This document shows positions 2,234-23,412 of a stretch of DNA of 30,627 bases, one piece after another. Source of the DNA: an uncultured Candidatus Melainabacteria bacterium. GTDB lineage: Bacteria > Cyanobacteriota > Vampirovibrionia > Gastranaerophilales > Gastranaerophilaceae. The stretch is taken from positions 1 to 30,627 of the forward strand of contig CAKVGW010000018.1 in NCBI GenBank assembly GCA_934747325.1, read 5' to 3'. Below the pieces are notes generated by a model, which worked only from the letters and a program-made list of their open reading frames with translations, ran no database searches and was not told the DNA's origin. Each line of letters opens with the position of its first letter. Positions within the stretch are counted from its first letter, which is position 1. A program made the position numbers and the translations under genes.

Positions 2234-2270
2234 AGCAAATATTATTTTATTAAGGACTTTATATATATAG
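2234..2270 (+). promoter_or_regulatory. Promoter-like element, copy A of three (AGCAA / ACTTTATATATAT)
   Basis: AGCAAATAT begins at 2234 and GACTTTATATATATAG spans 2255-2270. From the first base of AGCA to the A of ACTTT is 22 nt, exactly as in the copies at 11999 and 23377. It sits 22 nt before the start of the three-gene operon at 2293. It lacks a TTGACA-like hexamer at the 17-nt spacing seen at ordinary promoters in this window. Function is inferred from position and conservation. Confidence 0.55.
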
Positions 2271-2292
2271 GGTACCAGATTGGGATTTTTGT

Positions 2293-3369
2293 ATGATTAA
2301 ACCGGTAAATTTTTCAAACAACATAAAATTCAAAGCTCAAGCAGAAGAGAAAAAAGATGCTCCTGCAGAATCCAGACTTTTGCCGAATACGCTTAATACT
2401 CGCGTAAGACAAAAGTTTCAAAAAACAACTAATGCTTTTTTACAGTACCCTGTAAAAGGCTTGAAAGGGGATGTTAACTCAGATTTCTATGAATTTCTAT
2501 CAATGGGAATTATTCCTTATTTGGTAGGTAGCGGCATGTTCATGGCAATGTTTAATTTGTTGCATGACTTGAAGCCAAAATCTCAAAAAATTGCAGGACT
2601 TAACGGTAAAAATATGGCGTTGGGTGTTGTTATGTATGGTTTAGGTAAAACTTTGGCAAACGATTTGGTAACACGTCCTGTTTATTGGGGAACTGGTGTT
2701 GATACAGAACTTCCTATTGAACACGTTTATTATCCGCTTCCTAAAAACTCAGGCGAATCTGCAAACATTGAACCACAAATTCAACAAAGAAAAGTTTATG
2801 ACAGCGTTGAATTCTTTAGAAAAGATTTAATTCAAAGTGATCCTAAATATGGTGTAAAATATTACGATAATATCGCAAAAAAATTAAATATGGGTGATAA
2901 CTTGAATGATTCTGTAACTGAAACAACTCCGATTATTCAAGGTATTGTTTCTTCTACAAAAACTGCAAAAAGCTTAGCTTCTTACGCTTGGGCTGGAGCT
3001 GCGGTAGGGCTTGCAGTTCAAGATAGTTGGAGCAACTTCTTTGACGCAATTTCTAACAGAAAACGTCATATAGCAAAACCTAACGAAGGTTTGGGAACAA
3101 AAATATCTGCAAGAATTAAAAACGCCGGTGAAAATTTTGTAGATATTTCAAAAACTTTTGGAAAATCATTCACTCAAGCTTGCAAAACATTGTGGACCGG
3201 TAAAGAAGGTACAACAGGGTTCATGAAACATGCCGGAAAAGCTTGGATTTTATTTTCTACGGCTTTAACAATCGGCAGTGTAGCAAACGTTATTCATAGA
3301 GCAAAAAGTATGGGCAAATTGGCAAATAAAGATATTATGGACAAAGACAAAGAAAGTACGGTGATTTAG
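2293..3369 (+). CDS. Hypothetical membrane-associated protein with N-terminal FKA tag
   Basis: A 358-residue protein that I do not recognise. It has no classical signal peptide. The N terminus carries NNIKFKAQ (residues 9-16), resembling the tag of the GH13 protein in the same operon. Hydrophobic stretches occur near residues 69-90, 107-121, 230-245 and 312-332, suggesting a membrane-inserted or membrane-bound protein, with a charged middle and Lys-rich linkers. The ribosome-binding site is weak (GGGA about 8 nt before ATG). It is the first gene of an operon with the next gene 1 nt away, and it follows the AGCAA/ACTTTATATATAT element. It may be distantly related to its neighbour, since both show a hydrophobic segment followed by a Tyr/Pro-rich region. 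Confidence 0.6.
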   Translation: MIKPVNFSNNIKFKAQAEEKKDAPAESRLLPNTLNTRVRQKFQKTTNAFLQYPVKGLKGDVNSDFYEFLSMGIIPYLVGSGMFMAMFNLLHDLKPKSQKIAGLNGKNMALGVVMYGLGKTLANDLVTRPVYWGTGVDTELPIEHVYYPLPKNSGESANIEPQIQQRKVYDSVEFFRKDLIQSDPKYGVKYYDNIAKKLNMGDNLNDSVTETTPIIQGIVSSTKTAKSLASYAWAGAAVGLAVQDSWSNFFDAISNRKRHIAKPNEGLGTKISARIKNAGENFVDISKTFGKSFTQACKTLWTGKEGTTGFMKHAGKAWILFSTALTIGSVANVIHRAKSMGKLANKDIMDKDKESTVI

Positions 3370-3370
3370 T

Positions 3371-5887
3371 ATGGCAATAACTCCGGTACAACCAAATATA
3401 GACAATACTAAACTTCCTTACAGAGAAGCCAAAGGTACGATTAAAACTGATAAAGATATCAAACCGCTTCCACCGCAAGGGCACTTGGTACATGATACTT
3501 TGTTGTCAGTTCCTCAATATTTTTTGAAAGACATTGCTTATGATATAAAAGCGGTTAAAGACGGTTTCCAAGGTAAAGCAAACGATCACCAATTAGGCAG
3601 ATTAAATGATGTTGGTTTAAAAGTTGGTGGTATTGGTATTGCAACATATTTAGCTTCAAGAACAACAAATCCAATGGCTAGAACTATGGAATATTTGGGT
3701 TTAGGTGCGTTTTTGACTTCTATGACATTATTCCCTAAAGCATTTATCAATGTTCCATCAAGAATTTTACATGGTTTTTCAGTAGGTAAAGAATACATTG
3801 ATGACCAAGGCAGAAAAAAATCAGTATTCCAAGACAGCAACTACATTCCAATGGATATGTATCGCGGCGAATACCCTGGAGAAGATTTAGATGTAATCGG
3901 CGATAGAATGGGTATTCCAAGAGGAATTAAAAACCGTAATGATTTAATCAAAGAACAAATGAGAAAAGTTGCAACGCAAGATAATACATTATGGATGCTA
4001 ACAGCAGGTTTTGCGACTCCTGTTATGACAGCTTTAATTTGTTGTGGTATGGAAAAACTTATTGCGCCGGCAATGGAAAAAGCAAGAAATTACAGATATG
4101 ATTCTAAGATAGCTCATTTAGCAAAAGAAACAGCTTCTATGCCAATAAATGCAAATGAAATTGAAGCTAATAAATTAGGTAATGAGGTCGGTAAAGTTTT
4201 AGCAAACTACAAAGGTCAAGAACTTCCAAAAGCAGAACTTGATAATGTGGTTGAAATGTTAACCAAAAATCTTGATTCTAACGTAGCTGTTGGTATTAAA
4301 GAAGATTTGAATAACTTATTGCAACACGGTTTTGCAGTCGATGAAAAAACTTCTGAAAATATTATTAATGAAATCAAAAACAATGTTCCTAACAGAGAAA
4401 AAGTTACTTACGAAAAAATCTTTGTTCCAACAAAAGAAGAGTTAAACAAAATTATTGGTGACAAAAAAGTTATTACTGCAGATGATTTATATGAAATCAA
4501 AGGTAATTTGAAAAAATTCTTTGATGAAAAAATCGAAAAAGAAGCAAAAGGTTCAAAAGACGCATTCAAAGGTTATAGAAACCAAGTTGTTGATGATATT
4601 TCAAAATCACTTCAAAAAACTCCTTCAAGAATTTTAGACGAAGGTAAAATTAATAATATTCAAGATTTTGCAAAAATTCTAGGTGAATTTAAGGCTAATA
4701 ATAAAGCTTTAGATAAATGTAAAGTATTCAAGGTTGAACAAGCCCCTCAAACTGTTTTAGCTCATTCTTACGCTAAGTTCGAAAGTACATTGCTAGATTC
4801 ATTGGGTATTAAATTCAAAGAATTGAAACAAATGCGTCAGTCTGAAGAATTTGCAAAAGAAATTTTGGATAAAAAATTAACAGAACTTACTAAGAATGAA
4901 GAAGCATACAATAAAGCTATTTCAAAACTTGCTCAAGTTATGGCTGAAATGGACAAAGATTTAAACGGTAGAAATGAAGCTTTGAAGAATTTAATTACAG
5001 GAATTGAAAACAACTTCAACAATACTGCAAAACGTTTAGATGGCTTGGGTAATTTCAAAAGTACAATTGATAAATTGGTAAAAGAAGACGTTAAAACTCT
5101 TTCTAATTCAGTAAATTCAAACGAAGAATTATTTGATTTATTAGATGGTTTAACAAAAGATAAAACAGGTGCTTTAAATGGTGTTGAAAATGCTAAGGCG
5201 AACGCAAAAGGCGTTGGTTCAGCTAAGCAAGAAATGATTACAAAAATTGTTGACAGATATCAAGGCGTAAATAATTCATTCAATAGAGTATTACACGCAA
5301 TGGATTTATACAAACGTGAAATTCCTGCTGATGAATACGGTAAAGAACTTGTTAAACGTGGTAAACAAGCTGTTATTGGTTCAACATCTTCTGACAATAT
5401 TTTGAAATTAAATACGGTAAATAACGCAGAACTTTATAAAGATATTGTTCAAACAACTTGGAGAGTTGATGGTAACGCTAATGAAATCAAAGCAAAAGGT
5501 TATATTACAGAAGCTACTGATAAAGCTATTGCAGAAGGTGGTATTAAGACTCGTTTCCAACAATATTTGGTAAGGTTTAGAAATATGTTGGGTAACAATA
5601 CTTTAGATTTTACAAAACCTGACCATACGCTTGATACAAGTGTATTAAATAATTACGTAAAAGGTTCAAAGACAAGAATGTCTACATTTAACCTTGTTGG
5701 TCAAAACCCAGTAGACTTTGTGAAGAATGCAGCAGAAAGAAGATACGGAAACCAAAAATGGGTTAGAACAGCATCTGCAATTGCAGGAACAGTATTAGGT
5801 GCAACACTTCTTGCACAACTTTGTTTCGGTAAGATTAGAAATCCGCATAATATAGAAAAGAAGGTAGAAGATGGCAGCAATAACTAA
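3371..5887 (+). CDS. Large hypothetical protein, membrane segments flanking a coiled-coil region
   Basis: An 838-residue protein of unknown function. Hydrophobic segments lie at about residues 84-97, 107-125 and 208-232, and again near 800-822. Between them, residues 235-790 are almost entirely charged, Lys/Glu/Asn-rich and predicted helical or coiled coil, with repeated short K-x-x-E patterns. No catalytic motif is visible. It starts 1 nt after the previous stop and its last 17 nt overlap the next gene, so the three genes are translationally coupled. The architecture, with membrane anchors at both ends of a long helical body, suggests a structural or tethering role; this is inference only. 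Confidence 0.6.
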   Translation: MAITPVQPNIDNTKLPYREAKGTIKTDKDIKPLPPQGHLVHDTLLSVPQYFLKDIAYDIKAVKDGFQGKANDHQLGRLNDVGLKVGGIGIATYLASRTTNPMARTMEYLGLGAFLTSMTLFPKAFINVPSRILHGFSVGKEYIDDQGRKKSVFQDSNYIPMDMYRGEYPGEDLDVIGDRMGIPRGIKNRNDLIKEQMRKVATQDNTLWMLTAGFATPVMTALICCGMEKLIAPAMEKARNYRYDSKIAHLAKETASMPINANEIEANKLGNEVGKVLANYKGQELPKAELDNVVEMLTKNLDSNVAVGIKEDLNNLLQHGFAVDEKTSENIINEIKNNVPNREKVTYEKIFVPTKEELNKIIGDKKVITADDLYEIKGNLKKFFDEKIEKEAKGSKDAFKGYRNQVVDDISKSLQKTPSRILDEGKINNIQDFAKILGEFKANNKALDKCKVFKVEQAPQTVLAHSYAKFESTLLDSLGIKFKELKQMRQSEEFAKEILDKKLTELTKNEEAYNKAISKLAQVMAEMDKDLNGRNEALKNLITGIENNFNNTAKRLDGLGNFKSTIDKLVKEDVKTLSNSVNSNEELFDLLDGLTKDKTGALNGVENAKANAKGVGSAKQEMITKIVDRYQGVNNSFNRVLHAMDLYKREIPADEYGKELVKRGKQAVIGSTSSDNILKLNTVNNAELYKDIVQTTWRVDGNANEIKAKGYITEATDKAIAEGGIKTRFQQYLVRFRNMLGNNTLDFTKPDHTLDTSVLNNYVKGSKTRMSTFNLVGQNPVDFVKNAAERRYGNQKWVRTASAIAGTVLGATLLAQLCFGKIRNPHNIEKKVEDGSNN

Positions 5888-7670
5888 TATTTCAGCTGTA
5901 AACTTTAGAGCGACAGCAAATTATCAAACTCCTGTTAAACCTGAAACAAAAGAATATAATGTTCAGGATAAAGAAGTTACAAATAAATATCTTCAAAACC
6001 TTGCTTTGATGAACGCAGCGGGTGTTAAAAAAGTTGACTTAAATTCTAATGCTCAACAACCTTATAAAAACAATTTAAGAACAATGATTCAAAACAATGA
6101 ATCTGTTATGATGGCAATTGTTCCAAGAACATTTACCGCAAAAGATTTAAACGGTGATGATATTGTTATGCTTAAAGAAGGCGAAAAGAATGGAACTTTC
6201 TTGAGCGCTATTGAAAGATTAGATGAATTGAAAAATGATGGAATTAATACTATCCACATTCTTCCAATTCACCCAATGGGTAAAAAGAATGCACAAGGAA
6301 CTGCAGGTTCTCTTTATGCACCTGAAAAATTTGTTAATGATGATGGACATTTGGCAATTGATCCAATGTTGATTGATAAAAATGATCCAAGAACACCTGA
6401 CGAACAGTTCAAAGCTTTAATAGATGAATGTCATAAACGTAATATTAAGGTTATGTTAGACCTTCCAAGTTGTGCTTCTGTTGATATGTTTGAAGCAGAG
6501 CCTGAATTGATGGCTTATGGCAGAAACGGTGAAGAAAAAACTCCTCAAGGTTGGACAGATATCAGAATGTTTGAACCTTGGGCTGATGAAGCAGAAAGAA
6601 CTTTAAACCCTGCATTAATGGAAATGCACAAACAATTTGTTGATTCTTGCATTGATTTAGGCATTGACGGAATCAGAGCCGATGTAGCGAGAGCGAAACC
6701 TACTGAATTTTGGGATGAATTAATTTCATATTCACACAAAAAAGACCCTGAATTTGCTTGGCTTGCAGAAAGCTATACCTATGAATGCGCATCTCCAATG
6801 ATTAACATGCCTTATGACAGACCTGAAGATTTGTTAAATGCAGGTTTTGATGAATATTACGGTCAATACCATATTTTCCATGATTGGAGAAATGCAAGCG
6901 AATTTAATGATTATATTAAATTTAATCTAGACCTTTCCCACAAATTACCTGCAGGTAAGAGTGTTATCGGTTCTTTCTTAACTCACGATGACAGTTCATC
7001 AATGATTCATGGTGGTGAAAATTTCTGTAAATTGACAACAATTTTACAATCAACAATCCCAATGTGTAACCCATATTATATCGATGGTTTCCAAACAGGT
7101 GATTATTACGATTACCAATACAGAAATAAAGATAATGTAGAAACTTGGACAACTAAAGCAGACCCTAAAACAGGTGAACAAGTTCCAAAATATGATATGA
7201 ACGAACACCGTTACAGATTGGCGTTATTCAATATTTCAAGACAACCTGGTGGAGATTGTCCTGATATCGAAAGAGTTATGAAAGGTGCTATGGAAATGAG
7301 AGCCAAAAATTTAGATGTTTTGGCGGATAGAAACAGCAGTTTTATTGAGTTAGATAAACGAGAAGACAAGAATGACCAAATAATAACTTATGCAAGACAC
7401 AATAACGGTAGAACAATTCTTGTTGTAGCTAACAAAAATCCAAACAGAAATGTATCAGGTATTATAGAAATTCCTGGATTAAAAGCTGACCAAAAACTTG
7501 TAAACATGGTTCCTGAATATGGCGAAAAGAGCGAATTTCAAGTTGGTTCAAATGAAATGAAAGTAAATTTAGCGCCTGCTGATGCTTATGTGTTTGAAAT
7601 TGATACTCCAAATATAGAAGAAGATAGAAAAGGTAACGTTTACAAACAAAAAGTAAATGACGAACATTAA
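5871..7670 (+). CDS. GH13 alpha-amylase family protein
   Basis: A 599-residue protein with the (beta/alpha)8 barrel of glycoside hydrolase family 13. Family motifs are present: region I as VMLDLPS (D197), region II GIRAD with nucleophile D271 and R269, region III acid/base E300 in LAES, and region IV THDD with H372 and D373. All three catalytic carboxylates are kept, but the usual Asn-His of region I is replaced by Ser-Cys, which should alter the -1 subsite. A small beta domain closes the C terminus. There is no signal peptide; instead the N terminus carries AVNFRATA. The start overlaps the upstream gene by 17 nt. Substrate is unknown; a glucan hydrolase or glucanotransferase is likely. Confidence 0.8.
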   Translation: MAAITNISAVNFRATANYQTPVKPETKEYNVQDKEVTNKYLQNLALMNAAGVKKVDLNSNAQQPYKNNLRTMIQNNESVMMAIVPRTFTAKDLNGDDIVMLKEGEKNGTFLSAIERLDELKNDGINTIHILPIHPMGKKNAQGTAGSLYAPEKFVNDDGHLAIDPMLIDKNDPRTPDEQFKALIDECHKRNIKVMLDLPSCASVDMFEAEPELMAYGRNGEEKTPQGWTDIRMFEPWADEAERTLNPALMEMHKQFVDSCIDLGIDGIRADVARAKPTEFWDELISYSHKKDPEFAWLAESYTYECASPMINMPYDRPEDLLNAGFDEYYGQYHIFHDWRNASEFNDYIKFNLDLSHKLPAGKSVIGSFLTHDDSSSMIHGGENFCKLTTILQSTIPMCNPYYIDGFQTGDYYDYQYRNKDNVETWTTKADPKTGEQVPKYDMNEHRYRLALFNISRQPGGDCPDIERVMKGAMEMRAKNLDVLADRNSSFIELDKREDKNDQIITYARHNNGRTILVVANKNPNRNVSGIIEIPGLKADQKLVNMVPEYGEKSEFQVGSNEMKVNLAPADAYVFEIDTPNIEEDRKGNVYKQKVNDEH

Positions 7671-7680
7671 ATAAACAAAA

Positions 7681-7724
7681 CGGCAAAAATTCTTTCCTTC
7701 ACATTATTTGTGGAGGTTTTGCTG
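7681..7724. terminator. Hairpin between convergent genes
   Basis: CCTTCACA (7696-7703) pairs with TGTGGAGG (7709-7716), and an outer CGGCAAAA pairs imperfectly with TTTTGCTG (7717-7724). It lies in the 58-nt gap between the convergent GH13 gene and coaE, where a bidirectional terminator is expected. The flanking A- and T-tracts are short, so efficiency is uncertain. Confidence 0.45.
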
Positions 7725-7728
7725 TGGG

Positions 7729-8241
7729 TTATATAAAAGTTTTTAACAATTCATTTACTTGTTCATCCAATTCTTCTTTTGTTGAATTATTATGAATAAC
7801 AAAATCTGATTTATTAATTTTTTCATCTTGTGGCATTTGTGCATTCATACGTTTTAACGCTTGTTCTTTTGTAAAATTATTACGTTTCATCAATCTCTCA
7901 AGTCTAAGCTTATCATCACACTGCACAAAAATAATTTTATCAAATAATTTATCAAAACCCGTTTCAAATAACAGTGGAATTGAAACAAAAACGCATTTAT
8001 CTTGGCTTTCACTAAAAATTTTCAATATTTCATCTTTAACTTTCGGATGAATGTATTCTTCAAGCTTTTTCCTTGCAACAGGGTCTGAGAAAACTTTTTC
8101 ACCTAAAGCACGTCTATCTACATTTCCTAAAAATTTGTGCGCAATTTTGTCCGCATCAAAAACCGGAAAATCTTGGGCGATAATTTTTTCAACTTCAGAT
8201 TTCCCTGAAGCTATATTACCCGTTATTGCTATTTTTAGCAT
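7729..8241 (-). CDS. coaE: Dephospho-CoA kinase
   Basis: A 170-residue enzyme that phosphorylates the ribose 3'-OH of dephospho-CoA, the last step of coenzyme A synthesis in the cytosol. It starts MLKIAITGNIASGKS with the P-loop GNIASGKS at residues 8-15, followed by the family's DADKIAH motif and EYIHPKV. Length is slightly below the usual 195-205 residues but no motif is missing. The ATG at 8241 is chosen over a TTG at 8262 because AAGAGGG lies just upstream of it. It overlaps the end of the pseudouridine synthase gene by 26 nt and is probably co-transcribed with it. Confidence 0.9.
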   Translation of the reverse strand: MLKIAITGNIASGKSEVEKIIAQDFPVFDADKIAHKFLGNVDRRALGEKVFSDPVARKKLEEYIHPKVKDEILKIFSESQDKCVFVSIPLLFETGFDKLFDKIIFVQCDDKLRLERLMKRNNFTKEQALKRMNAQMPQDEKINKSDFVIHNNSTKEELDEQVNELLKTFI

Positions 8242-8977: not shown

Positions 8978-9104
8978 AATTATATTGTATGTTAAAAGAT
9001 TGACATTTAACAGTCTAATGTAAATTTTTATTAAATTATAGAAAACATTATTAAAGTTTTCAGAAATTATACCGATATACATGAAGTAAGATTAAGGAGT
9101 AATA

Positions 9105-11587: not shown

Positions 11588-11971
11588 ATGAAATTTCTAC
11601 ACACAATGGTTAGAGTTAAAGACATTGAAAAATCTTTAGCATTTTATACAGACGTACTTAATATGAAACTTGATCACAAGAAAAGATTAGAAGATTGTTG
11701 GTTGTATTTTCTAACAGATGAAGAAAATACATGCCAGATTGAACTAACTTACAATGACGAAACACCTGAAGGCGGATATGAATTAGGCAGCGGTTTTGGT
11801 CATTTTGCATTCTCAGTTGATTCTTTAGATGAATTCACAGATAAAATTAACAAATTAGGTTATTCTTATCTTTATCCGCCATTTGATTTGAACGGCAAAG
11901 GTTCTAAAATTGCTTTTATCAATGATCCAGACGGATATGAAATTGAACTTATTGAAAAAGTTAATTGGTAA
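11588..11971 (+). CDS. gloA: Glyoxalase I (lactoylglutathione lyase-like, VOC family)
   Basis: A 127-residue VOC-fold metalloenzyme expected to convert the hemithioacetal of methylglyoxal into a lactoyl thioester, a detoxification step. All four metal ligands of bacterial GloA are visible: H5 in FLHTM, E52 in IELTYN, H72 in GFGHFAF and E120 in YEIELIE. The YELGSGFGH segment is characteristic of GloA. The short length and lack of the extra loop suggest a Ni/Co-type rather than Zn-type enzyme. AAGGAG precedes the ATG. Whether the thiol cofactor here is glutathione is unknown. Confidence 0.85.
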   Translation: MKFLHTMVRVKDIEKSLAFYTDVLNMKLDHKKRLEDCWLYFLTDEENTCQIELTYNDETPEGGYELGSGFGHFAFSVDSLDEFTDKINKLGYSYLYPPFDLNGKGSKIAFINDPDGYEIELIEKVNW

Positions 11972-11998
11972 CATTTCTTAATAATCTTCTTCTAATAA

Positions 11999-12034
11999 GG
12001 CAATTTTCTTAAACTTTTTGACTTTATATATATG
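11999..12034 (+). promoter_or_regulatory. Promoter-like element, copy B of three (GGCAA / ACTTTATATATAT)
   Basis: GGCAATTTT begins at 11999 and GACTTTATATATATG occupies 12020-12034, with 22 nt from GGCA to ACTTT as in the other two copies. It lies 43 nt upstream of the 50-residue gene at 12077 and just downstream of the gloA stop codon. The GGCAATTTT box is identical to that of copy C. Confidence 0.6.
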
Positions 12035-12076: not shown

Positions 12077-12229
12077 ATGAATATTGCAATTAGGAAATTA
12101 GCTATGCTTGAAAAAAGTCTTTTAGAACGAGAAGAAGCTGCAAAGCTTGATGGTTATGTAACATCTCCAATTGATCCTGTTTTTAAAGAAAAAGTTATCA
12201 GATTAATGGATAAAGTTAGGGTTCTTTAA
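12077..12229 (+). CDS. Small hypothetical protein (50 residues)
   Basis: A short gene that a length cut-off would miss. ATG at 12077 is preceded by a full AGGAGG at 12066-12071 with 5-nt spacing, one of the best ribosome-binding sites in the window, and by the GGCAA/ACTTTATATATAT element. The product (starts MNIAIRKLAMLEKS, ends MDKVRVL) is charged, probably two helices joined by a GYVTSPIDP turn, without membrane segment or Cys. I do not recognise it. Its 3' end overlaps the convergent ABC transporter gene by 14 nt. The strong translation signal makes a real protein likely. Confidence 0.65.
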   Translation: MNIAIRKLAMLEKSLLEREEAAKLDGYVTSPIDPVFKEKVIRLMDKVRVL

Positions 12230-16288: not shown

Positions 16289-17356
16289 ATGGGTGATGAA
16301 GATAAACAGTTCGATGCCACCCCCCAAAAGCTTGAGAGAGCGAGAAAAGAAGGGCAGGTAGTTAAATCTAAAGACGTGTCAACCGCATTGTCTTTACTTG
16401 TGATGTTTTCTTTTATAAACATGCTTGCCCCTATTATATGGAAGCTCATTGTCGGACTTTTTAAAACTCTTTATGAACAAATACCAAATCAACATATTGA
16501 AAATATAGGGATGACTTATATTCTAACAGTTACACTTATTCCAACAGTTGTGATTATTGGTGCAATTTTGTTCGTGGCAGCTTTTGTTGCGATAATTGGT
16601 GATTTTATTCAAGTAGGGCCTCTTGTGGCAACTGCTCCTTTAGTACCAAAGCTTGATAAACTTAATCCAACAAAATATTTTAAAAATCTTTTTCAAGTAA
16701 AAACACTATTTGAGCTTTGTAAAAACATTGTAAAGGTATTTATTTTGGGGCTTGTCGGTTGGACTGTTTATAGAGCGCATTTGGAAAGTATTCTCATGCT
16801 TGCTGCTATAGATAACCATTTTGCTGTAATGATAGAATTTGGCAAACTAATTGTAGAATTTATCTACAAAGCTTGTATTGCATTTCTTATTATTGCAGCT
16901 GCCGATTATGGTATGACAAAGTGGAAATTTTTTAAAGACCAAAAAATGTCTTTTAAAGAAATTAAAGATGAGTACAAAAACTCAGAAGGTGATCCGCACG
17001 TAAAAGCCGCTTTAAGACAAAGACGTATGCAAATGCTACAGCAAGGTGCAATGGACTCTGTTCCTGAGGCTGATTTTGTGGTTAGAAATCCGACCCATGT
17101 AGCTTGTGCCTTAAAATATGATTCTGAAACGATGCAATCGCCAATGTTGACAGCAAAAGGAACAGAACTTATTGCTAAAAAAATTATTGATATTGCGACG
17201 AAACACAATGTACCGGTAATTGATAACGCTCCGGTCGCAAGAGCTTTGTTCAGGATGGTTGATATCAATCAACAAATTCCACCAGAATTGTATAAAGCAG
17301 TTGCAGAAATTCTATTATTTGTTTATGGATTGAAGAACAAACAACAGGGACAATAA
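16289..17356 (+). CDS. EscU/YscU/FlhB-family export apparatus switch protein
   Basis: A 355-residue inner-membrane protein of the flagellar/type III export gate. The start DKQFDATPQKLERARKEGQ is typical of FlhB/YscU, four membrane helices follow (about 35-60, 78-105, 150-172, 185-207), and the cytosolic domain carries the self-cleaving motif NPTH at residues 267-270, which switches substrate specificity after cleavage between Asn and Pro. The ending near IPPELYKAVAEILLFVYGL is also standard. Flagellar and virulence versions cannot be separated from sequence alone. No other export gene is in the window. A strong hairpin plus T16 follows the stop codon. Confidence 0.88.
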   Translation: MGDEDKQFDATPQKLERARKEGQVVKSKDVSTALSLLVMFSFINMLAPIIWKLIVGLFKTLYEQIPNQHIENIGMTYILTVTLIPTVVIIGAILFVAAFVAIIGDFIQVGPLVATAPLVPKLDKLNPTKYFKNLFQVKTLFELCKNIVKVFILGLVGWTVYRAHLESILMLAAIDNHFAVMIEFGKLIVEFIYKACIAFLIIAAADYGMTKWKFFKDQKMSFKEIKDEYKNSEGDPHVKAALRQRRMQMLQQGAMDSVPEADFVVRNPTHVACALKYDSETMQSPMLTAKGTELIAKKIIDIATKHNVPVIDNAPVARALFRMVDINQQIPPELYKAVAEILLFVYGLKNKQQGQ

Positions 17357-17399
17357 ACTATAACTTTCATTGATGGGAAACTATAGCTGTAAGTCATTC

Positions 17400-17467
17400 A
17401 CTACTTGCGTAACCCCATTCCTTCATAGAGGGAATGGCCTAAAGTAGTTCATTTTTTTTTTTTTTTT
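17400..17467 (+). terminator. Two-stem rho-independent terminator after the EscU/FlhB gene
   Basis: Outer stem ACTACTT (17400-17406) with AAGTAGT (17442-17448) encloses an inner stem CCATTCC (17415-17421) with GGAATGG (17431-17437). A run of 16 T (17452-17467) follows three bases later. This is the strongest terminator-like signal in the window. Confidence 0.75.
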
Positions 17468-17498
17468 ACATTTGCATCTTTTAACTAGCGCATGTCAT

Positions 17499-17855
17499 AC
17501 CCTCCCTTGGGGAAAAATGCTAAAGGCGAGCACTACTGTCCGAGATAAATTTATCTATAATTTACAAAAAGTAGTTAAGTCAAGGCTTTTTAATAAAATT
17601 TGTACTGTATAGACTAAAAATAATAGTTAATAAAAAGCTGGATTGCTTCAGGCTAATCGCCTTCGCAATGACGTGGCGTGAGACTACCGGTTGGGCGTCA
17701 TTGTGAGGTGCGATTTTTACGCTTCACTTCCATACTTGTAGTTTTAACTACCAACTTGGAAGTGTATTGTAAAACGAAACAATCCAGCCTTTTAATAACT
17801 TTTTTTATTTTATTAAAATTATTTCGGACAGTAGTGCGAAGGTGGGAGAGGGTGT
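17499..17855. repeat. Nested inverted-repeat (MITE/foldback-like) element in a 571-nt noncoding gap
   Basis: The gap 17357-17927 holds no convincing gene. Its core is bounded by 23-bp inverted arms, 17530-17552 and 17815-17837, matching at 21 of 23 positions around GCACTACTGTCCG. Inside lies a second pair of 24-bp arms, 17626-17649 and 17776-17799, around AAGCTGGATTGCTTC. The middle holds further dyads: GCAATGACG with CGTCATTG, and CACTTCCA with TGGAAGTG. Outside the 23-bp arms, ACCCTCCC on the left and GGGAGAGGGT on the right extend the symmetry. No transposase is encoded and no clear target duplication is seen. It may be a non-autonomous element or a large structured transcript. Confidence 0.7.
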
Positions 17856-17871
17856 TATTAATTTTTACATC

Positions 17872-17900
17872 TTGAAAAAATGTATAAATCTTGGTATGAT
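17872..17900 (+). promoter_or_regulatory. Sigma-70-type promoter of the sigma-factor gene
   Basis: TTGAAA (17872-17877) and TATGAT (17895-17900) are separated by exactly 17 nt and lie 27 nt before the ATG at 17928. It begins just outside the right arm of the inverted-repeat element. Confidence 0.65.
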
Positions 17901-17927
17901 ATTCTTAGGTTAGTTTAATAAGAGAAG

Positions 17928-18623
17928 ATGGAAAATAACACTTTAATCAAACAATACCTTGGTATTGTTCAAAAAATAGCAAGAGTAGAGCATAGGCGTA
18001 TACCTAACCATATGATAGAGTATGAAGAATTGGTTAGTATAGGCATAATAGCCATTCAAACTTTGATTAAAGGCAAAACGGAAGAACAACTTGCTCATTA
18101 TAACGAAGCGTACATTGGTACTGCTGTAAAATGGGCAATAAGAAATGAATTACGTCACCGTTATAAATGGTATACAATGAAGCATAAAAAAGAAGAAGGG
18201 GACGAAGATAGTTATGTTTCTGATGCAGTTACCGAAAACGGTGAAGACAGTTCTGAAGATATGGGATTCAGTATATCTCCGACAAAAGTTCGTGAAGCAG
18301 TTTATGAAACAATTCTTTCTATTGATGGTTTGGCGGCTGCAGCAACTGATAATGCTTCTCCTTTTGATTTTATTAAGGACCCGTCTGCATTGCCTGATGA
18401 GCAAGCAGAAATTGTTGAAATGAGCAAACTTATTAAACAAGCCATAGCAAAATTACCTCAAAAAGAACGTACAGTAGTTGAATATCGTTTTTATAGAAAT
18501 ATGCAGGCAAAAGATATTGCAACTATGGTAGGGCTTTCGCCGTCAAGAATTACAAGAATTGTACAATTTTCTTTAAACCAAATCAGGGAATATTTAAAGA
18601 GCCGCGGTCGAGTAGATTATTAA
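17928..18623 (+). CDS. FliA-like sigma-70-family RNA polymerase sigma factor
   Basis: A 231-residue alternative sigma factor. Region 2 occupies about residues 1-85 (LIKQYLGIVQKIARV, then YEELVSIGIIAIQTLI), and region 4 spans about 170-225 with LPQKERTVVEYRFY and the helix-turn-helix AKDIATMVGLSPSRITRIVQ. The middle is an acidic linker (about 90-150) weakly like region 3. There is no region 1.1, and the length fits the FliA/SigB/SigF group. FliA-type factors direct flagellar or stress regulons; the EscU/FlhB homologue just upstream makes a motility or export regulon plausible. The ribosome-binding site is weak. The gene overlaps the convergent dehydrogenase by 4 nt. Confidence 0.82.
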   Translation: MENNTLIKQYLGIVQKIARVEHRRIPNHMIEYEELVSIGIIAIQTLIKGKTEEQLAHYNEAYIGTAVKWAIRNELRHRYKWYTMKHKKEEGDEDSYVSDAVTENGEDSSEDMGFSISPTKVREAVYETILSIDGLAAAATDNASPFDFIKDPSALPDEQAEIVEMSKLIKQAIAKLPQKERTVVEYRFYRNMQAKDIATMVGLSPSRITRIVQFSLNQIREYLKSRGRVDY

Positions 18624-19630
18624 CAAACGCGATTTGTATTTACTCCTTTAATATAATCTCTTATATTGTTAAAAGTTTTTGTTAAAAGGTAATTTACAGA
18701 GTCATGTGTATTATAGGCTATATGTGGTGTAATTATTACATTATCCATATTGAATAATTTTTGTGTAACGAGCGCTGTTTCCACGCAATGTGATTCGGAG
18801 TCTTTTATTACATTGCTGAGTTCTCCCGGATGCGTACTTAAAAATTCGCATTCTAAAGCATCGAGTGCAGCTGCTTTAACTTTGCCTGTAATTAAATTAT
18901 CATAAAGTGCTTTAATATCAAGAAGTTCCCCTCTTGCAGTGTTAACAAATACAACACCGTCTTTCATTTTTTCAAACTCTTCTTTTCCGATTAAATGGTA
19001 GTTATCACCTGTATACAATAAGTGTAAAGAAATAACATCGGCTTCCCTCAATAATTCATCTAAACTTACAAAATCGCAAAAACTATCTAATTCAGGATTC
19101 TGCATGTATGAGTGAATCAAAACTTTCATCCCTAAAAAGTTTGCAATTTTTGCAACAGCACTTCCTATTTGTCCGCAACCGACAATTCCAAGTGTCAAAT
19201 TGTTGAGCTTTTTCCCTTCATAGTGTTTGTAATTTATTTTATGCGACTTCATGTCTAAAATCGCCGGTAACATGTTCCTTACAAGAACAATAATCAACGC
19301 TATTGCATACTGAGCAACAGCTTCTTCTCCGTATTGTTCAACATTAAGTACCGCAATATTGTGTTCTATGCAGTAATCTAAATCAATATGCCCATATCCG
19401 TAAGAGCGTGTTGCAATAATTCTTAGATTTTTGAACTGTTTAAGAACTTTATCTGTTAAATTAGAACTTCTAAATACACTAATAATATCTGTTTCGTTTT
19501 TTTGTTCTTCGCTTAGGTTGAAATCAGCATTCAGAGGTTCACGTATAAAAGACAAATCAAAGTCTACAAGTTCATTATTTTGAAAAAATTCTTTTTCTGT
19601 ATCGCGAAAGTCAAACATTAACATTTTCAT
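18620..19630 (-). CDS. D-2-hydroxyacid dehydrogenase (D-lactate dehydrogenase-like)
   Basis: A 336-residue NAD-dependent cytosolic enzyme interconverting a 2-oxoacid and a D-2-hydroxyacid, most likely pyruvate and D-lactate. The Rossmann motif is GIVGCGQIGSAVA (about 148-160). Catalytic residues are R233 in NTARGE, E262 in LDALECE and H303 in TPHIAYNT, with the 29-residue Arg-to-Glu spacing of D-LDH. The stretch ATRSYGYGHIDLD also matches fermentative D-LDH. AAGGAG lies about 11 nt before the ATG. It may regenerate NAD in a fermentative cell. Vancomycin-resistance VanH is a related alternative, but no ligase gene is next to it. Confidence 0.85.
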   Translation of the reverse strand: MKMLMFDFRDTEKEFFQNNELVDFDLSFIREPLNADFNLSEEQKNETDIISVFRSSNLTDKVLKQFKNLRIIATRSYGYGHIDLDYCIEHNIAVLNVEQYGEEAVAQYAIALIIVLVRNMLPAILDMKSHKINYKHYEGKKLNNLTLGIVGCGQIGSAVAKIANFLGMKVLIHSYMQNPELDSFCDFVSLDELLREADVISLHLLYTGDNYHLIGKEEFEKMKDGVVFVNTARGELLDIKALYDNLITGKVKAAALDALECEFLSTHPGELSNVIKDSESHCVETALVTQKLFNMDNVIITPHIAYNTHDSVNYLLTKTFNNIRDYIKGVNTNRVC

Positions 19631-19711
19631 GAAATTATCTTCTCCTTAATAAAGAGTATTGTTGATAATAGTTTTTTGACTATTCGCTGAGTTGGTAATT
19701 CTGAAATACTA

Positions 19712-19740
19712 AAAGAGGATGACTTTTCAGTCACCCTCTT
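19712..19740 (-). terminator. Rho-independent terminator of the GGDEF gene
   Basis: On the minus strand AAGAGGGTGACT and AGTCATCCTCTT form a 12-bp stem with one mismatch and a GAAA tetraloop, beginning 3 nt after the stop codon of the GGDEF gene. The following T-tract is short (TTTAG). Confidence 0.65.
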
Positions 19741-19743
19741 AAA

Positions 19744-20616
19744 TTACATTTCCAAATTCATTTGAGAGAATTGAATGATTTTATTTTTACCCCTATGTTT
19801 TGCATTGTATAAAGCATGCTCTGCGTATCTGATTACAGTATTTGCATCTTCTTCAACATCCGGCATACAAGGGTATGTTGAAATACCTCCTGAAACTGTT
19901 ACCTTGTGCGGTTCTTCTTCGCCGGCAGGAATAAATTCCATCTTTTCAACTTCTCGTCTAAATCTTTCGCCAAATAAAAATGCATTGTCTTCCGATGTAT
20001 TTGGAAGTACCAATAAAAATTCTTCATCCCCGTAACGAGTTAAGATATCTTCTTTTCTTATCATTGCATTAAGTTTATTTGCAATTTTTGTTAGTAGAAT
20101 ATCGCCCCACTCGTAACCGTACATGTCGTTAACTACTTTAAAGAAATCAATGTCAAACAATAAGCAAGAAAGCTTTGTGCCATAACGTCTTGAACGAGAA
20201 ATTTCTTCTTCTAAACGTTCTTGCAAGTATTTTCTGTTATGCAAACCTGTTAAATCATCTGTTGTAGAAACTCGCTCTAATTTGTCCTTTATTGACTTTA
20301 TTTTTAATAACGCATTTACACGAACAATGAGTTCGTCAATATTTGCAGGATCTTTAATGAAGTCAAATCCTTCTGCTCTTACTGTTACATCTCTTCTTGT
20401 CGGACCAAAGAAAAGGATTGGGCAAGGAAATTTGTTTGTCATTAAAGCATCTTTAGCTAAATCAATGTTTTCTATAATCATTAAAGATGGGTTAATAACC
20501 GCATAATCCTTTATTTTATCAATAGAAACAACTCTAACCTCTGCGTCATCAATGTCCATTAACGTGGCTTGAAGTTCAGGCATAGGTTTTGTTGAATAAA
20601 TTACAATATTGCTCAT
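19744..20616 (-). CDS. Diguanylate cyclase (GGDEF) with degenerate receiver domain
   Basis: A 290-residue protein. Residues 1-105 resemble a response-regulator receiver but lack a clear phosphoacceptor Asp (the position reads SLMIIENIDL) and the Lys-Pro near its end reads KDP, so it is probably a pseudo-receiver. Residues 115-285 are a GGDEF domain that makes cyclic di-GMP: DDLTGLHNR, FDIDFFK with metal-binding Asp, and the active-site loop as RYGDEEF, so GGDEF is replaced by GDEEF (196-200). An RxxD product-inhibition site, RKED (187-190), sits exactly 5 residues before it. Activity is likely but the second Gly is missing. AGAGGA precedes the ATG. Confidence 0.85.
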   Translation of the reverse strand: MSNIVIYSTKPMPELQATLMDIDDAEVRVVSIDKIKDYAVINPSLMIIENIDLAKDALMTNKFPCPILFFGPTRRDVTVRAEGFDFIKDPANIDELIVRVNALLKIKSIKDKLERVSTTDDLTGLHNRKYLQERLEEEISRSRRYGTKLSCLLFDIDFFKVVNDMYGYEWGDILLTKIANKLNAMIRKEDILTRYGDEEFLLVLPNTSEDNAFLFGERFRREVEKMEFIPAGEEEPHKVTVSGGISTYPCMPDVEEDANTVIRYAEHALYNAKHRGKNKIIQFSQMNLEM

Positions 20617-20651
20617 AAATCTTCCTCTTATTTAATTTGCCTAACATTTTA

Positions 20652-20679
20652 ATAATACACTATTTGTAACAATTTGTAA
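20652..20679 (-). promoter_or_regulatory. Possible promoter of the GGDEF gene with ATTTGTAA direct repeat
   Basis: On the minus strand TTACAA (20674-20679) and TATTAT (20652-20657) are 16 nt apart. On the plus strand ATTTGTAA occurs at 20662-20669 and 20672-20679, one helical turn apart, overlapping this promoter. The repeat could be an operator. Confidence 0.4.
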
Positions 20680-20726
20680 ATCTTTTAGAATTTAACGATT
20701 TTCTAAAGTTTAGTTTATAAACAAAG

Positions 20727-20753
20727 AAAAGAGCCACTAGATTGGCTCTTTTT
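20727..20753 (-). terminator. Rho-independent terminator downstream of tRNA-Arg
   Basis: AAAAGAGCC (20727-20735) pairs with GGCTCTTTT (20744-20752) around an 8-nt loop. On the minus strand it follows the tRNA by about 11 nt and ends in a T-tract. It is symmetric and could work in either direction. Confidence 0.7.
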
Positions 20754-20763
20754 ACAAAAAAAA

Positions 20764-20837
20764 TACGCCTGCCGCGATTCGAACGCGGGACCCTCTGCTT
20801 AGAAGGCAGATGCTCTATCCAGCTGAGCTACAGACGC
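20764..20837 (-). tRNA. tRNA-Arg (anticodon TCT)
   Basis: A complete cloverleaf on the minus strand: acceptor arm GCGTCTG with CAGGCGT, D-arm from GCTCAGCTGGATAGAGC, anticodon stem TCTGC/GCAGA with loop CTTCTAA giving anticodon TCT (reads AGA), and T-arm CCGCG-TTCGAAT-CGCGG. The discriminator base is A and the CCA end is not encoded, so it must be added by the nucleotidyltransferase. The first acceptor pair is a G-U. Confidence 0.95.
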
Positions 20838-20941
20838 ATAAATTTTTATTCAGTTTGTATAAATAGAATATCACATCAAACTTTTTTTGCAAGACTTTTA
20901 TTTTGAGAAATTTTTATCCCTTTTTTTAGGTGCGTAATTGC

Positions 20942-20970
20942 TTTACATTTCTTAAAAAACATGCTATTTT
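20942..20970 (+). promoter_or_regulatory. Extended -10 promoter of the Maf-type gene
   Basis: TTTACA (20942-20947), a 17-nt spacer ending in TGC, and TATTTT (20965-20970) fit an extended -10 sigma-70 promoter about 55 nt upstream of the ATG at 21026. Confidence 0.5.
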
Positions 20971-21025
20971 TAAATAAAAAAGCCCTTTATCGGTCTATTT
21001 TTACATAATTTTAAAAGGATTTGAA

Positions 21026-22702
21026 ATGTTTAATAAGAATTTGTTGTTTTTTAATAATGAAGAGCTAAAAGAGAGATTAAAAAGATTTTCACTTGATGAT
21101 ACTAAAAAAAATTTGTCATATTGCATGACACCATCAAATGATTATTTATTAATGAAGGACGAAGTTCCGATTGACGATGTTAATAATCCTCGTGAAGCTG
21201 TTAAACAAATGCTCAAATCTACTATTAAAAGTGAAATGGGCAAAAACGATATTATTATCACTTTCGGTATTGGTTTAGGCTATCTTTTGGATGAAGTTTT
21301 TAATACATATCCAAGCAGAATTTATGTATACGAACCTGACACGATGCTTTTGCATTTTGTTTTGAACAACGTTGATATTTCTGAACATCTTGCAAGTGGT
21401 CGAGTTTATATAACAGATAATTTAAAAGATTTGTTAAACAAATTGAGTGCAACCTATATTAATAAGGACAAAGTAGAAATAGTTTATTTGAAAAACTACG
21501 CACTTGTAAGAAGTAAAGAGCTTTTGGAACTTACTCAAAAAGTTTACGAAACATGCAAAACTAAGATGGTTGACGTAAACACAATTGCAAGATTTTCTAA
21601 AAAATGGTTGCTTAATACATTGAGAAATATTAGTACGGTAAATAATTCCTCTATTTCATTACTTTCTGATTTAGAAAATAAATTTATCGGACAAACCGCT
21701 TTAATAGTTGCTGCAGGCCCATCATTAAATGAAAATATTGAAAAAATCAAAGCAAATAGAGATAAATTTGTTATTTTTGCAGTAAATAAAGTTTTAAGAA
21801 CATTAGAAGCTAATGGTATAACTCCTGATTTTGCGGTTTGTTTAGACGCTAGTGCAATCAGTGCAACTTATACAGGTTTAGAAGATTATTGTGCAAAAAT
21901 TAATTGTATAAGTGACTTAAAATCTGATGCTGCAATTTTGTTATCATCATTCAAAAAACATTTTTTAACATTTTCTGAAACAGATTTTATTGTTAAAAAA
22001 CTAATTAACTTTAATAAAAGTTTTAAGACATACGAATTGGGCGGTTCTGCTACAACAATGGCACTCGTTCTTGCGTCAAAACTAGGTTTTAGCAAAATTG
22101 TTTTTGCTGGATTAGATTTAGCATTCAAAAATGATATTATGTACTCAACAGGTGAAACTGTTAATAAAGCACCTAACGGTCAAATTATTACAGGTAATTC
22201 TACTAAAAATATTGTAAAAGTTAAATCGGTGACAGGTGGAATGGTAAGCACTCGTGATGATTATGCCGCGTTTATTAACCACTTTGAAACATTGATAAAG
22301 GATTTGGGCATTAAAGAAGTTTATAATACAACATCTTTTGGGGCTGCAATTGAAGGCATGAAGAATGTTGCGTTCGATGATATTCCTCTATTTTTATCAA
22401 CGACAGGCGTAAACTTAATTTTATCAGAACCTAAACCTTTTAAGATAGAAACAAAAGATTGGACTCAGGAAGAATTATTTTTGATAAATAATATCATTTC
22501 ATTGCTTTCTAAAGGTGTATTTTCACCGGCTTTAATATCTTCAATCGTAAAATCTTCTCTTGTTTATGAATATATGCAAGCAGATATAATTCAGGTTATG
22601 CAGTCAAAATTTGACCCGAATCTTGCGGAAGAATTTATTGAAAAGGCTAAAGCTGCTATAAAAGCGGTTGTTGAATATTTGCAAAAATATAGATTAATAT
22701 AA
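21026..22702 (+). CDS. Maf-type motility accessory / DUF115 glycosyltransferase-like protein
   Basis: A 558-residue protein of the motility-associated factor family (DUF115, MptE-like fold). The N-terminal domain shows DIIITFGIGLGYLLDEV and VYEPDTMLLHFVL (about 75-113). The central domain begins at QTALIVAAGPSLNENI (about 223-238) with D274 in AVCLDAS and a later GGSATTMAL segment. Maf proteins in Campylobacter and other bacteria transfer nonulosonic acids to flagellin; related copies act on other surface glycoproteins. No flagellin gene is visible here, so the acceptor is unknown. AAAAGGA precedes the ATG, and the next gene starts 14 nt after the stop. Confidence 0.8.
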   Translation: MFNKNLLFFNNEELKERLKRFSLDDTKKNLSYCMTPSNDYLLMKDEVPIDDVNNPREAVKQMLKSTIKSEMGKNDIIITFGIGLGYLLDEVFNTYPSRIYVYEPDTMLLHFVLNNVDISEHLASGRVYITDNLKDLLNKLSATYINKDKVEIVYLKNYALVRSKELLELTQKVYETCKTKMVDVNTIARFSKKWLLNTLRNISTVNNSSISLLSDLENKFIGQTALIVAAGPSLNENIEKIKANRDKFVIFAVNKVLRTLEANGITPDFAVCLDASAISATYTGLEDYCAKINCISDLKSDAAILLSSFKKHFLTFSETDFIVKKLINFNKSFKTYELGGSATTMALVLASKLGFSKIVFAGLDLAFKNDIMYSTGETVNKAPNGQIITGNSTKNIVKVKSVTGGMVSTRDDYAAFINHFETLIKDLGIKEVYNTTSFGAAIEGMKNVAFDDIPLFLSTTGVNLILSEPKPFKIETKDWTQEELFLINNIISLLSKGVFSPALISSIVKSSLVYEYMQADIIQVMQSKFDPNLAEEFIEKAKAAIKAVVEYLQKYRLI

Positions 22703-22716
22703 TATTAGGAGCGCCT

Positions 22717-23349
22717 ATGAAAAAAATCTTACTGACACTAATTTGCTTATCTCAAATTTCTGCCTGTTTTGCTGCTGATTATTTAAAAGTAACAGCAATG
22801 GAGGATTTTAGCACTGACTCTCCTAAAGAGTTCTTTAATGTTCGCTTGAGAGAAGAAGGAACGCTCGGCAAATATGAATTACCGACCAATTCCATTCTGC
22901 ATTGCCAAGTATTACAAATAGTTGACCCGAAACGCGGAAAAAGAAACGCAGTCTTTTTTGTTAAACCATTAACTTATACTCAAGGCGATGAAACATTGCA
23001 AATTCAAGAAGATATGTATGGAAAGTATACAACGGTAGTTTTGTCAAAAGAAGAAATTAAAAAATTACCTTACTGGAAAATGGTTAAAAATGGTGCTTTA
23101 ATGGTTGGCAGTTACTTTGTAAAAGGGCTTTCAATCGGCGTAGCGTTTGTAGAAGGTGTAGCTAAAAACGAGCAAGACAATCGCTTAAAATCAGGTGTTA
23201 CAAATGCTTATGAAGAATCTCCGATTTCTCTTGTGGAAAAAGGCGAGCAGTTGGATATAAAAACAGGCGATGATTTCTATTTTGTATTTAAAACAGAAGA
23301 AGACGAACAAGAACCTAATTACACTTATATTCCTGCAGAAGAAAATTAA
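22717..23349 (+). CDS. Exported hypothetical protein or lipoprotein
   Basis: A 210-residue protein beginning with a classical signal peptide: MKK, hydrophobic ILLTLICLSQI, then SACFAAD. It could be cut by signal peptidase I after Ala19 or Ala20, or processed as a lipoprotein at Cys17, since ISAC fits the lipobox. The mature part has a KGLSIGVAFVEGVA stretch that may pack against a membrane and an acidic C terminus. No known domain is recognised. AGGAG precedes the ATG, and the 14-nt gap indicates co-transcription with the Maf-type gene, so a role at the cell envelope is likely. Confidence 0.65.
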   Translation: MKKILLTLICLSQISACFAADYLKVTAMEDFSTDSPKEFFNVRLREEGTLGKYELPTNSILHCQVLQIVDPKRGKRNAVFFVKPLTYTQGDETLQIQEDMYGKYTTVVLSKEEIKKLPYWKMVKNGALMVGSYFVKGLSIGVAFVEGVAKNEQDNRLKSGVTNAYEESPISLVEKGEQLDIKTGDDFYFVFKTEEDEQEPNYTYIPAEEN

Positions 23350-23353
23350 ATAA

Positions 23354-23374
23354 TTTGTAACATTTCGTTACAAA
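23354..23374. promoter_or_regulatory. Operator-like palindrome
   Basis: TTTGTAAC (23354-23361) and GTTACAAA (23367-23374) are perfect inverted arms around a 5-nt spacer. The site lies 2 nt before the GGCAA box of the third promoter-like element, an expected place for a regulator dimer. The octamer ATTTGTAA also occurs twice upstream of the GGDEF gene. It has no T-run, so it is a poor terminator. Confidence 0.45.
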
Positions 23375-23376
23375 AA

Positions 23377-23412
23377 GGCAATTTTTGGAGAGAAAATAAC
23401 TTTATATATATA
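23377..23412 (+). promoter_or_regulatory. Promoter-like element, copy C of three (GGCAA / ACTTTATATATAT)
   Basis: GGCAATTTT starts at 23377 and AACTTTATATATATA spans 23398-23412, again with 22 nt from GGCA to ACTTT. It lies 29 nt upstream of the glycine-zipper gene at 23442. Confidence 0.6.

Follow-up and report, generated by a model that had tools for sequence, protein, structure and literature searches.

What drives the genes that lie behind a short element found three times in a stretch of DNA from an uncultured Candidatus Melainabacteria bacterium, and how far does that element extend beyond this stretch? We analysed positions 1 to 30,627 of contig CAKVGW010000018.1 (assembly GCA_934747325.1; Gastranaerophilaceae, Gastranaerophilales); by the window we mean this whole stretch of 30,627 nucleotides (nt), which has a GC content of 32%. 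An initial annotation of the window had proposed that the element, two boxes at a fixed spacing, is promoter-like and marks a candidate lineage-specific regulon. Our reading is that it probably represents a promoter class of the order Gastranaerophilales, with its own regulon, that is activated by the regulator RpaB. We give this reading as a whole a probability of about 0.72; the promoter class and its regulon, taken alone, are highly probable.

All three sites lie on the + strand, and in each the starts of an [AG]GCAA box and of ACTTTATATATAT are 22 nt apart, as first described:

2234..2268, + strand: site 1, AGCAA-N17-ACTTTATATATAT, 0 mismatches; a degenerate form is kept upstream in relatives
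11999..12033, + strand: site 2, GGCAATTTTC...ACTTTATATATAT, 0 mismatches
23377..23411, + strand: site 3, GGCAATTTTT...ACTTTATATATAT, 0 mismatches

Sites 2 and 3 share GGCAATTTT in full, again as described, and site 1 reads AGCAAATATT. A search of the window allowing two mismatches returned the same three sites and nothing else, which bears out the claim that there is no further copy. The count of RGCAA-N17-ACTTTATATATAT (R being A or G) is therefore 3, compared to a mean of 0.01 in 100 dinucleotide shuffles of the window, none of which (0/100) reaches 3. The element ends 24, 43 and 30 nt before a start codon at sites 1, 2 and 3, respectively, in agreement with its reported position before the starts of hypothetical genes.

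The first gene after site 1 encodes a 358-amino-acid (aa) protein with relatives at 10 loci (Gastranaerophilales 5, Melainabacteria 1, 'Cyanobacteria bacterium' 1, uncultured bacterium 3), whose genomes we refer to as G001-G010. Scanning these related genomes, as the initial annotation had proposed, yielded 147 exact sites of RGCAA-N17-ACTTTATATATA in 10 of 10 relatives, with 9-23 per genome, and none for the pattern read backwards. When two mismatches were allowed, G001, G008 and G009 had 43, 63 and 50 sites, compared to 1, 4 and 3 in the reversed search. Among the matches listed, which for G001 are not the total, is a variant, TGAAATT, at the identical register before ACTTTATATATA, as well as GTCAATT and CGCAATT forms. 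We therefore distinguish two sub-classes with one spacing, class A (RGCAATTTT) and class B (TGAAATT). For closer analysis we collected the regions (L numbers) around every exact site of G001, G008 and G009, 10 of the 18 sites of G007 and 20 variant sites selected from G001 and G008; each of the remaining six relatives contributes three loci, and sites with identical flanks were removed from the lists of both classes. A matrix scan of the collected loci, most of which were collected for the element, gives 113 matches above 20 bits and 0 in the reversed loci.

Beyond the close relatives, 40 of the 60 order genomes searched have the strict form GGCAATTTT (control 0). Of 292 phylum genomes, 129 have a looser form with a shorter right half, with 2-46 copies each and a control of 0 throughout; the other 163, including all genomes of at least 2.6 Mb in that set, show no match. 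The 39 order genomes common to both samples are all positive (39/39). In the remaining 21 of the 60, where only the strict pattern was run, 5 are positive, three of these being 2.9-3.1 Mb in size. The element thus belongs to the Gastranaerophilales, dense in part of the order and elsewhere sparse or drifted from the strict form.

The sites are also positioned as promoters would be. A Shine-Dalgarno-like stretch and a start codon follow within 120 nt at 47 of 71 class A sites (median 30 nt), compared to 211 of 1476 random places, and at 19 of 78 when the opposite strand is read at the same sites; 7 of the 78 class A sites were left out of the position test because too little sequence lies downstream. 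Only 3 of 71 lie inside an open reading frame of at least 120 aa (1067/1476 at random). Class B behaves likewise, with starts downstream in 7 of 14 (random 29/262) and 2 of 14 inside an open reading frame (random 194/262). For 31 sites of both classes there is no such start: 9 of these belong to three kinds of non-coding RNA, discussed below as small RNAs sRNA-1 to sRNA-3, and 3 are possibly non-coding (L069, L075, L091), while many of the rest are followed by an open reading frame with a weaker Shine-Dalgarno stretch. Taken together, the number of sites in the relatives, the phylum genomes without a match and the intergenic positions just before starts strongly support the proposal that the element defines a distinct promoter-like class, specific to this lineage and with its own regulon.

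RpaB is known as a regulator of the light response in photosynthetic cyanobacteria, where HLR1 and RpaB together provide light and redox control of photosynthesis. We scored the 60 nt before each core for the HLR1 consensus (G/T)TTACA(T/A)(T/A)NN(G/T)TTACA(T/A)(T/A), which is given in passages of PMC11633204 and derives from photosynthetic cyanobacteria, out of 16 informative positions; upstream sequence had played no part in the selection of sites. A score of at least 14 is reached by 54 of 75 class A sites (4.5% in dinucleotide shuffles) and by 14 of 14 class B sites (5.7%). Among the 72 class A sites that score at least 12, the repeat lies on the + strand at -31 in 27 and at -20/-21 in 16, two registers about one helical turn apart; the rest fall into smaller groups, some of them inverted. 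In class B the repeat is inverted and lies at -33 in 12 of 14 sites and at -34 in the other 2. The window sites carry the following repeats:

2199..2216, - strand: HLR1-like repeat TTAACATATTTTTACAAT, site 1, 15/16
11968..11985, + strand: HLR1-like repeat GTAACATTTCTTAATAAT, site 2, 13/16, weak
23357..23374, + strand: HLR1-like repeat GTAACATTTCGTTACAAA, site 3, 15/16

The site 1 repeat is conserved on the same strand at -34/-35, scoring 15-16 of 16, in 8 of the 9 upstream regions of relatives that have a loose form of the element. The exception, L006, has it on the + strand at -42, and at L010 the loose form was not found. This repeat at preferred upstream phases is a feature absent from the initial annotation, and it supports the suggestion made there that the class may be activator-dependent.

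The same coupling appears in contigs classed as viral. The core pattern has 37 matches there. In the 10 that read RGCAATT, an HLR1-like repeat scoring 13-15 is always present at -30 to -32; of the other 27, two score 13 and the rest lower. These ten IMG/VR contigs (L163, L164, L165, L170, L176, L185, L189, L190, L191 and L196) are not a fully independent set, since one flank is common to L185 and L196, and L190 corresponds to a site of G009 (L058). The promoter may be in use by phages or mobile elements of these hosts; alternatively, the contigs may be host DNA.

Is a suitable regulator present? G001 and G008 each encode three OmpR-type regulators. One regulator of G001 (L101:958-1746), a relative of the window genome, passes the RpaB equivalog model NF045944 of NCBIfam with 354.4 bits (cut-off 330). 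Its identity to the RpaB-like protein that G110 encodes (L139) is 73%, and by eye the recognition stretches, TRVVDVHISRLRSKLE and TRVVDVHISRLRAKLE, differ by one S/A exchange, the common form being TRVVDVHISRLR(S/A)KLE. G191 encodes an RpaB that is 89% identical. Among the best 120 of 7180 matches in a protein search with RpaB, which scored 8000 candidates, one is labelled RpaB (P0112, 87% identical). That the lineage has an RpaB gene is already known: homologues of RpaA, RpaB and NblS in non-photosynthetic cyanobacteria are reported in passages of PMC3787301 (Di Rienzi 2013) and PMC4040986, and rpaA and rpaB in passages of PMC5877343. Passages of PMC3787301 also report an NblS homologue, the partner kinase of RpaB, for Melainabacteria, describe four complete Melainabacteria genomes without photosynthetic machinery, and suggest only a possible other function for these genes.

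From the architecture, enrichment, conservation and position before genes that we observe, and from the RpaB of a relative, we infer the following arrangement. The -35-like box, which is RGCAATTTT in class A and TGAAATT in class B, keeps a constant register of 22 nt to the -10-like (T)ACTTTATATATA, and transcription would probably start at a TAAG-like stretch just downstream. The HLR1-type direct repeat ends 2 to about 17 nt before the first box, roughly 40-75 nt before the putative start; the distance is about 53-75 nt for the class B repeats and those at -31, and about 42-60 nt for those at -20/-21. An RpaB orthologue would bind this repeat and activate genes and non-coding RNAs, the predicted targets being small proteins, secreted or envelope-type proteins, cell-wall hydrolases and non-coding RNAs. 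We propose activation because the repeat lies upstream of the core in all registers: passages of PMC6331805 report that RpaB activates from an HLR1 upstream of the core promoter, placed about 50-100 nt before the start in passages of PMC11633204, and both describe repression from an HLR1 inside the core promoter or close to the start.

HLR1-like sites are enriched across whole genomes, with 61 in G001, 85 in G008 and 83 in G009 compared to 11, 12 and 6 in the reversed sequences. Five further genomes of the phylum were scored, of which two show the enrichment (G191, 36 vs 4; G110, 28 vs 4). In the window, a 16/16 repeat at 20663-20680 (- strand) lies 46 nt before a GGDEF (diguanylate cyclase) gene at 19744-20616, and no element is found there.

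Several observations weigh against an RpaB-activated class. The enrichment of HLR1-like sites is not seen in G072 (2 vs 0), G083 (0) or G146 (1 vs 1), and G191, which is enriched, has no element, so HLR1 is not specific to the promoter class. In G009, 64 of the 83 HLR1-like sites are more than 80 nt from any of the 50 elements; because only 19 of 83 lie within that distance, RpaB-type sites probably serve further promoters too. Window site 2 is weak, a score of 14 is not reached at 21 of 75 class A sites, and the window has 3 HLR1 matches of at least 15 compared to 4 in the reversed sequence, though 2 of the 3 sit at elements. The -20/-21 register is only partly inside the range given for activation. 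Within the core, the -35-like boxes of classes A and B differ, so two recognition events may be mixed, and the invariance of ACTTTATATATA is partly an effect of the search key, since variants were seen when two mismatches were allowed. Finally, sites before related genes are not independent, and with homologous sites the repeat counts overstate the number of separate events.

Two other explanations concern what reads the core. A dedicated alternative sigma factor might do so, with the HLR1-like repeats incidental or bound by another OmpR-type regulator, making the regulon sigma-driven. The strict two-box geometry and a -10 box unlike TATAAT fit this, and proteins are at hand: the four genomes searched have 12-14 sigma-70 region-4 matches each (a few below the family cut-off), including group-2-like proteins with an altered region 2.4, and the three OmpR-type regulators of G001 all match the RpaB model best, one of them passing its cut-off. 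Against this view stands the coupling of HLR1 phase to the core, in both classes and in viral contigs, and no sigma gene was tied to the element; we consider it possible but lean away from it. A housekeeping reading is comparably tentative. The sigma-70 promoter is TTGACA-N17-TATAAT, and RpoD might read TGAAA of class B as a weak -35 box and TACTTT as -10, with activation by RpaB offsetting the weakness of the boxes; an activator beside weak promoter boxes is a common design, which this arrangement fits. Class B is indeed partly compatible (nTGAAA-N16-TACTTT), since nTGAAA is close to TTGACA, the spacer is 16 nt, and T-12, A-11 and T-7 are retained in TACTTT. Class A is not: GGCAA is a poor -35 box yet strongly conserved, and the long ACTTTATATATA is unlike the variable -10 boxes of ordinary promoters.

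Two further explanations deny that the element is a promoter. It could be a repeat or the end of a mobile element, as several copies at contig ends with near-identical downstream sequence and the 10 viral-classed contigs might suggest. We reject this, as very improbable, because the flanks, spacers and downstream genes otherwise differ, only the boxes and the upstream repeat being common, and because the sites are intergenic and oriented toward starts. Chance similarity in intergenic DNA comes to mind in a window this AT-rich, but the shuffle and reversed-pattern controls (0/100 shuffles reaching 3; 0 vs 147 sites in the 10 genomes; 0 in 292 genomes) refute it, leaving it next to no probability.

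The initial annotation had raised, by pure inference, a link of the element to a FliA-like sigma factor encoded in the window, and this link is not supported. Of the 38 order genomes with sRNA-3, 37 have an orthologue (at least 63% identity), but so do 17 of the other 22, and G058 has none yet has 11 copies of the element. Because its presence does not track the element, we dropped this protein as the reader. The group-2-like sigmas with an altered region 2.4 have IKQTIIRA (L119, L120, L122) or IKQAMFKAI (L123, L125), in a comparison that left out L121, L124 and L126; nothing connects L119- or L123-type proteins to the element, and they are a lead only. A matrix scan of 30 sigma loci (of 52 matches) found no above-threshold element directed into a sigma gene at close range. 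The match at L113 lies in the region shared with the sigma gene and is directed away, toward a ribbon-helix-helix gene; that at L123 stands before an sRNA-3 gene, convergent with the sigma gene; that at L114 is weak and about 500 nt upstream of the sigma gene. For these loci we set aside autoregulation of a sigma factor through the element. In G001, a gene that looks flagellin-like by eye (L105:1969 onward) lies beside a response regulator and has no element upstream. The window encodes an FlhB-family protein (PF01312) at 16289-17356.

The three putative non-coding RNA kinds behind the element have no open reading frame and end in a terminator-like hairpin and a run of T. Their loci are:

L060:1850-1998 (- strand), L061:1825-1998 (- strand), L079:1037-1200, L123:1680-1844 (- strand) and L149-L160: sRNA-3 candidates, with a 30-nt block, the element upstream and a hairpin
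L023 (- strand), L084, L161 and L162: sRNA-2
L029, L035, L037 and L067: sRNA-1, with a conserved ACTACACTTCACACAT and a terminator-like hairpin behind the element

The 30-nt block of sRNA-3, CTCTCTTAATATCCTCGTGTTTATTTAATG, is present in 38 of 60 order genomes at 44 places, 40 of them free of mismatches where 3 were allowed (control 0). Twelve loci were derived from exact block matches; L149 is the same place as L048, and L156 was left out of the alignment. The core lies 113-150 nt upstream in 10 of the 12 by pattern, and by eye a degenerate core stands at the same register in the other two. The hairpin is followed by the T run; the flanks differ among loci, and paired changes, judged by eye, preserve the terminator stem. 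The expected length of the RNA is about 145-175 nt. With what appears to be its own promoter and an intrinsic terminator, sRNA-3 has two of the sequence features expected of a trans-acting small RNA. In G008, sRNA-2 has a 35-nt stretch that is identical in both of its copies, one after class A and the other after class B; it occurs in 1 of the 60 order genomes, G001, likewise in two copies. sRNA-1 was found at single loci of G003, G004, G005 and G008. In a search of 13 loci against Rfam, none of the three kinds has a match at the gathering score. Three matches up to E 1, all below that score, were taken as chance; one of them, L20_leader, coincides at L061 with the position of sRNA-3.

Could sRNA-3 target the regulon? 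Of the 69 regulon leaders, 10 contain a perfect complement of at least 9 nt, compared to 4 of 167 others (p 0.0009), a comparison confounded by kinship and AT content. At 7 nt or more the counts are 29 of 69 and 40 of 167 (p 0.007), and at 6 nt or more there is no difference (41/69 vs 89/167). In 200 trials with letter-shuffled sRNA-3, the largest 7-nt regulon fraction was 0.406, compared to 0.420 observed. The mean duplex energy is -13.6 for regulon leaders and -11.9 for others (p 0.003). An action of sRNA-3 on regulon leaders is thus suggestive only. Pairing of sRNA-2 with these leaders was dropped, because its mean duplex energy there is weaker than for other genes (-7.9 vs -9.7), and the duplex energies of sRNA-1 gave no signal. 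The heptamer AGGTTAG is commoner in regulon leaders (5/69 vs 1/167). At L069 and L075, a short leader, AAGGTTAGATAAGGTTG, directly follows the element and leads into a terminator-like hairpin; it resembles the leaders of some regulon genes and is perhaps a decoy RNA or an attenuator.

The genes behind the window sites are as follows:

2293..3369, + strand: 358-aa protein, first gene after site 1, without a Pfam family
3371..5887, + strand: 838-aa protein without a Pfam family, probably in an operon with the 358-aa gene (1-nt spacing)
5871..7670, + strand: 599-aa alpha-amylase-family protein (PF00128, E 2.1e-05), probably in the same operon; overlaps the 838-aa gene
12077..12229, + strand: 50-aa small protein after site 2, without a Pfam family; judged by eye, L025 and L040 have similar proteins after the element
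23442..24812, + strand: 456-aa glycine-zipper-rich protein after site 3, without a Pfam family

The 1-nt spacing and the gene overlap make an operon from 2293 to 7670 probable. The 50-aa reading frame after site 2 is supported because the same small protein, recognised by eye, stands behind the same element in G005 (L025) and G001 (L040), where the two counterparts are 50% identical to each other. By eye, the N-terminus of the 456-aa protein resembles MTAPISSLLNMETMLYG (L026) and MVTPISSLMNMEYMLYG (L097) from two other genomes, both behind the element or its GTCAATT form and 39% identical to each other. A short FKA/FRA/FKT-like motif, also seen by eye, lies near the N-terminus of several proteins (window 2293 and 5871; L032, L099) and is possibly a lineage-specific signal.

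Certain gene families lie downstream of the element in more than one genome, among them a 62-aa ribbon-helix-helix protein at 8 loci and, at 3 loci, a 302-aa protein weakly similar to MgtE_N. We scanned 48 of the 75 downstream open reading frames, picked to remove near duplicates, against Pfam, PHROGs and NCBIfam. Few families were found: peptidoglycan hydrolases (GH108, glucosaminidase, SLT), ribbon-helix-helix, EF-hand and glycine zipper. PHROGs gave endolysin matches for one two-member family and tail-protein matches for single members. Because of these few matches, to cell-wall hydrolases among others, and of protein composition, the regulon products would appear to be secreted or envelope-type. 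A multi-copy gene family (MAATFDAIERNKKPAGALEIP...) stands behind near-identical elements in G001, G008 and G009 (L027, L041, L047, L053, L054, L062, L073). Some assemblies end just past an element (contig ends in G001, G003, G007 and G008).

Among the matches listed in a search of the literature on gene control in Gastranaerophilales, Melainabacteria or Vampirovibrionia, we found no description of this promoter class. Its promoter-like sites with HLR1-like repeats are testable targets and offer a way to ask whether the RpaB network predates photosynthesis. The pattern also allows probable start sites, small proteins and small RNAs to be recognised from sequence alone, in a gut lineage that is represented here chiefly by metagenome assemblies. 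A more ambitious extension, which we put forward only tentatively, is that HLR1 and RpaB operate in a non-photosynthetic sister lineage through a promoter class of its own, driving a secreted or envelope regulon together with a hub small RNA, sRNA-3, whose 30-nt block damps the Shine-Dalgarno regions of the regulon. If this is true, the RpaB site is older than, or independent of, the photosynthesis genes, and a new feed-forward circuit is defined.

How does the class compare with known systems? Promoters of FliA (sigma-28) have the form TAAA-N15-GCCGATAA; they share two boxes, strict spacing and a long conserved -10 with the element, but neither box fits its base frequencies. Those of extracytoplasmic function sigma factors, of the GGAAC-N16/17-GTC type, likewise have a G-rich -35-like box with AA and about 22 nt between box starts, whereas here AAT replaces AAC and ACTTTA replaces the GTC-type -10. 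The sigma-54 promoter has GG at -24 and GC at -12, and no conserved downstream GC is found in the base frequencies of the element. Like trans-acting small RNAs with anti-Shine-Dalgarno seeds, sRNA-3 has an upstream element, a conserved pyrimidine-rich block and a terminator-like hairpin; it differs in having no Rfam family at gathering score, in having been searched for in this order only, and in target evidence that is only suggestive. The reports on RpaA, RpaB and NblS in Melainabacteria concern the same regulator genes, and their passages in PMC3787301, PMC4040986 and PMC5877343 name no binding site, promoter or targets. Closest to our reading is the RpaB/HLR1 regulon under NblS-RpaB in photosynthetic cyanobacteria: the repeat fits the HLR1 consensus and lies upstream of the core, as described for RpaB-activated genes in passages of PMC6331805 and PMC11633204, and a relative encodes an RpaB equivalog with a matching recognition stretch. 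What sets the Gastranaerophilales apart is that HLR1 is phase-coupled to a core promoter absent from 163 of 292 phylum genomes, and that the predicted targets are mostly uncharacterised proteins, some cell-wall hydrolases and non-coding RNAs.

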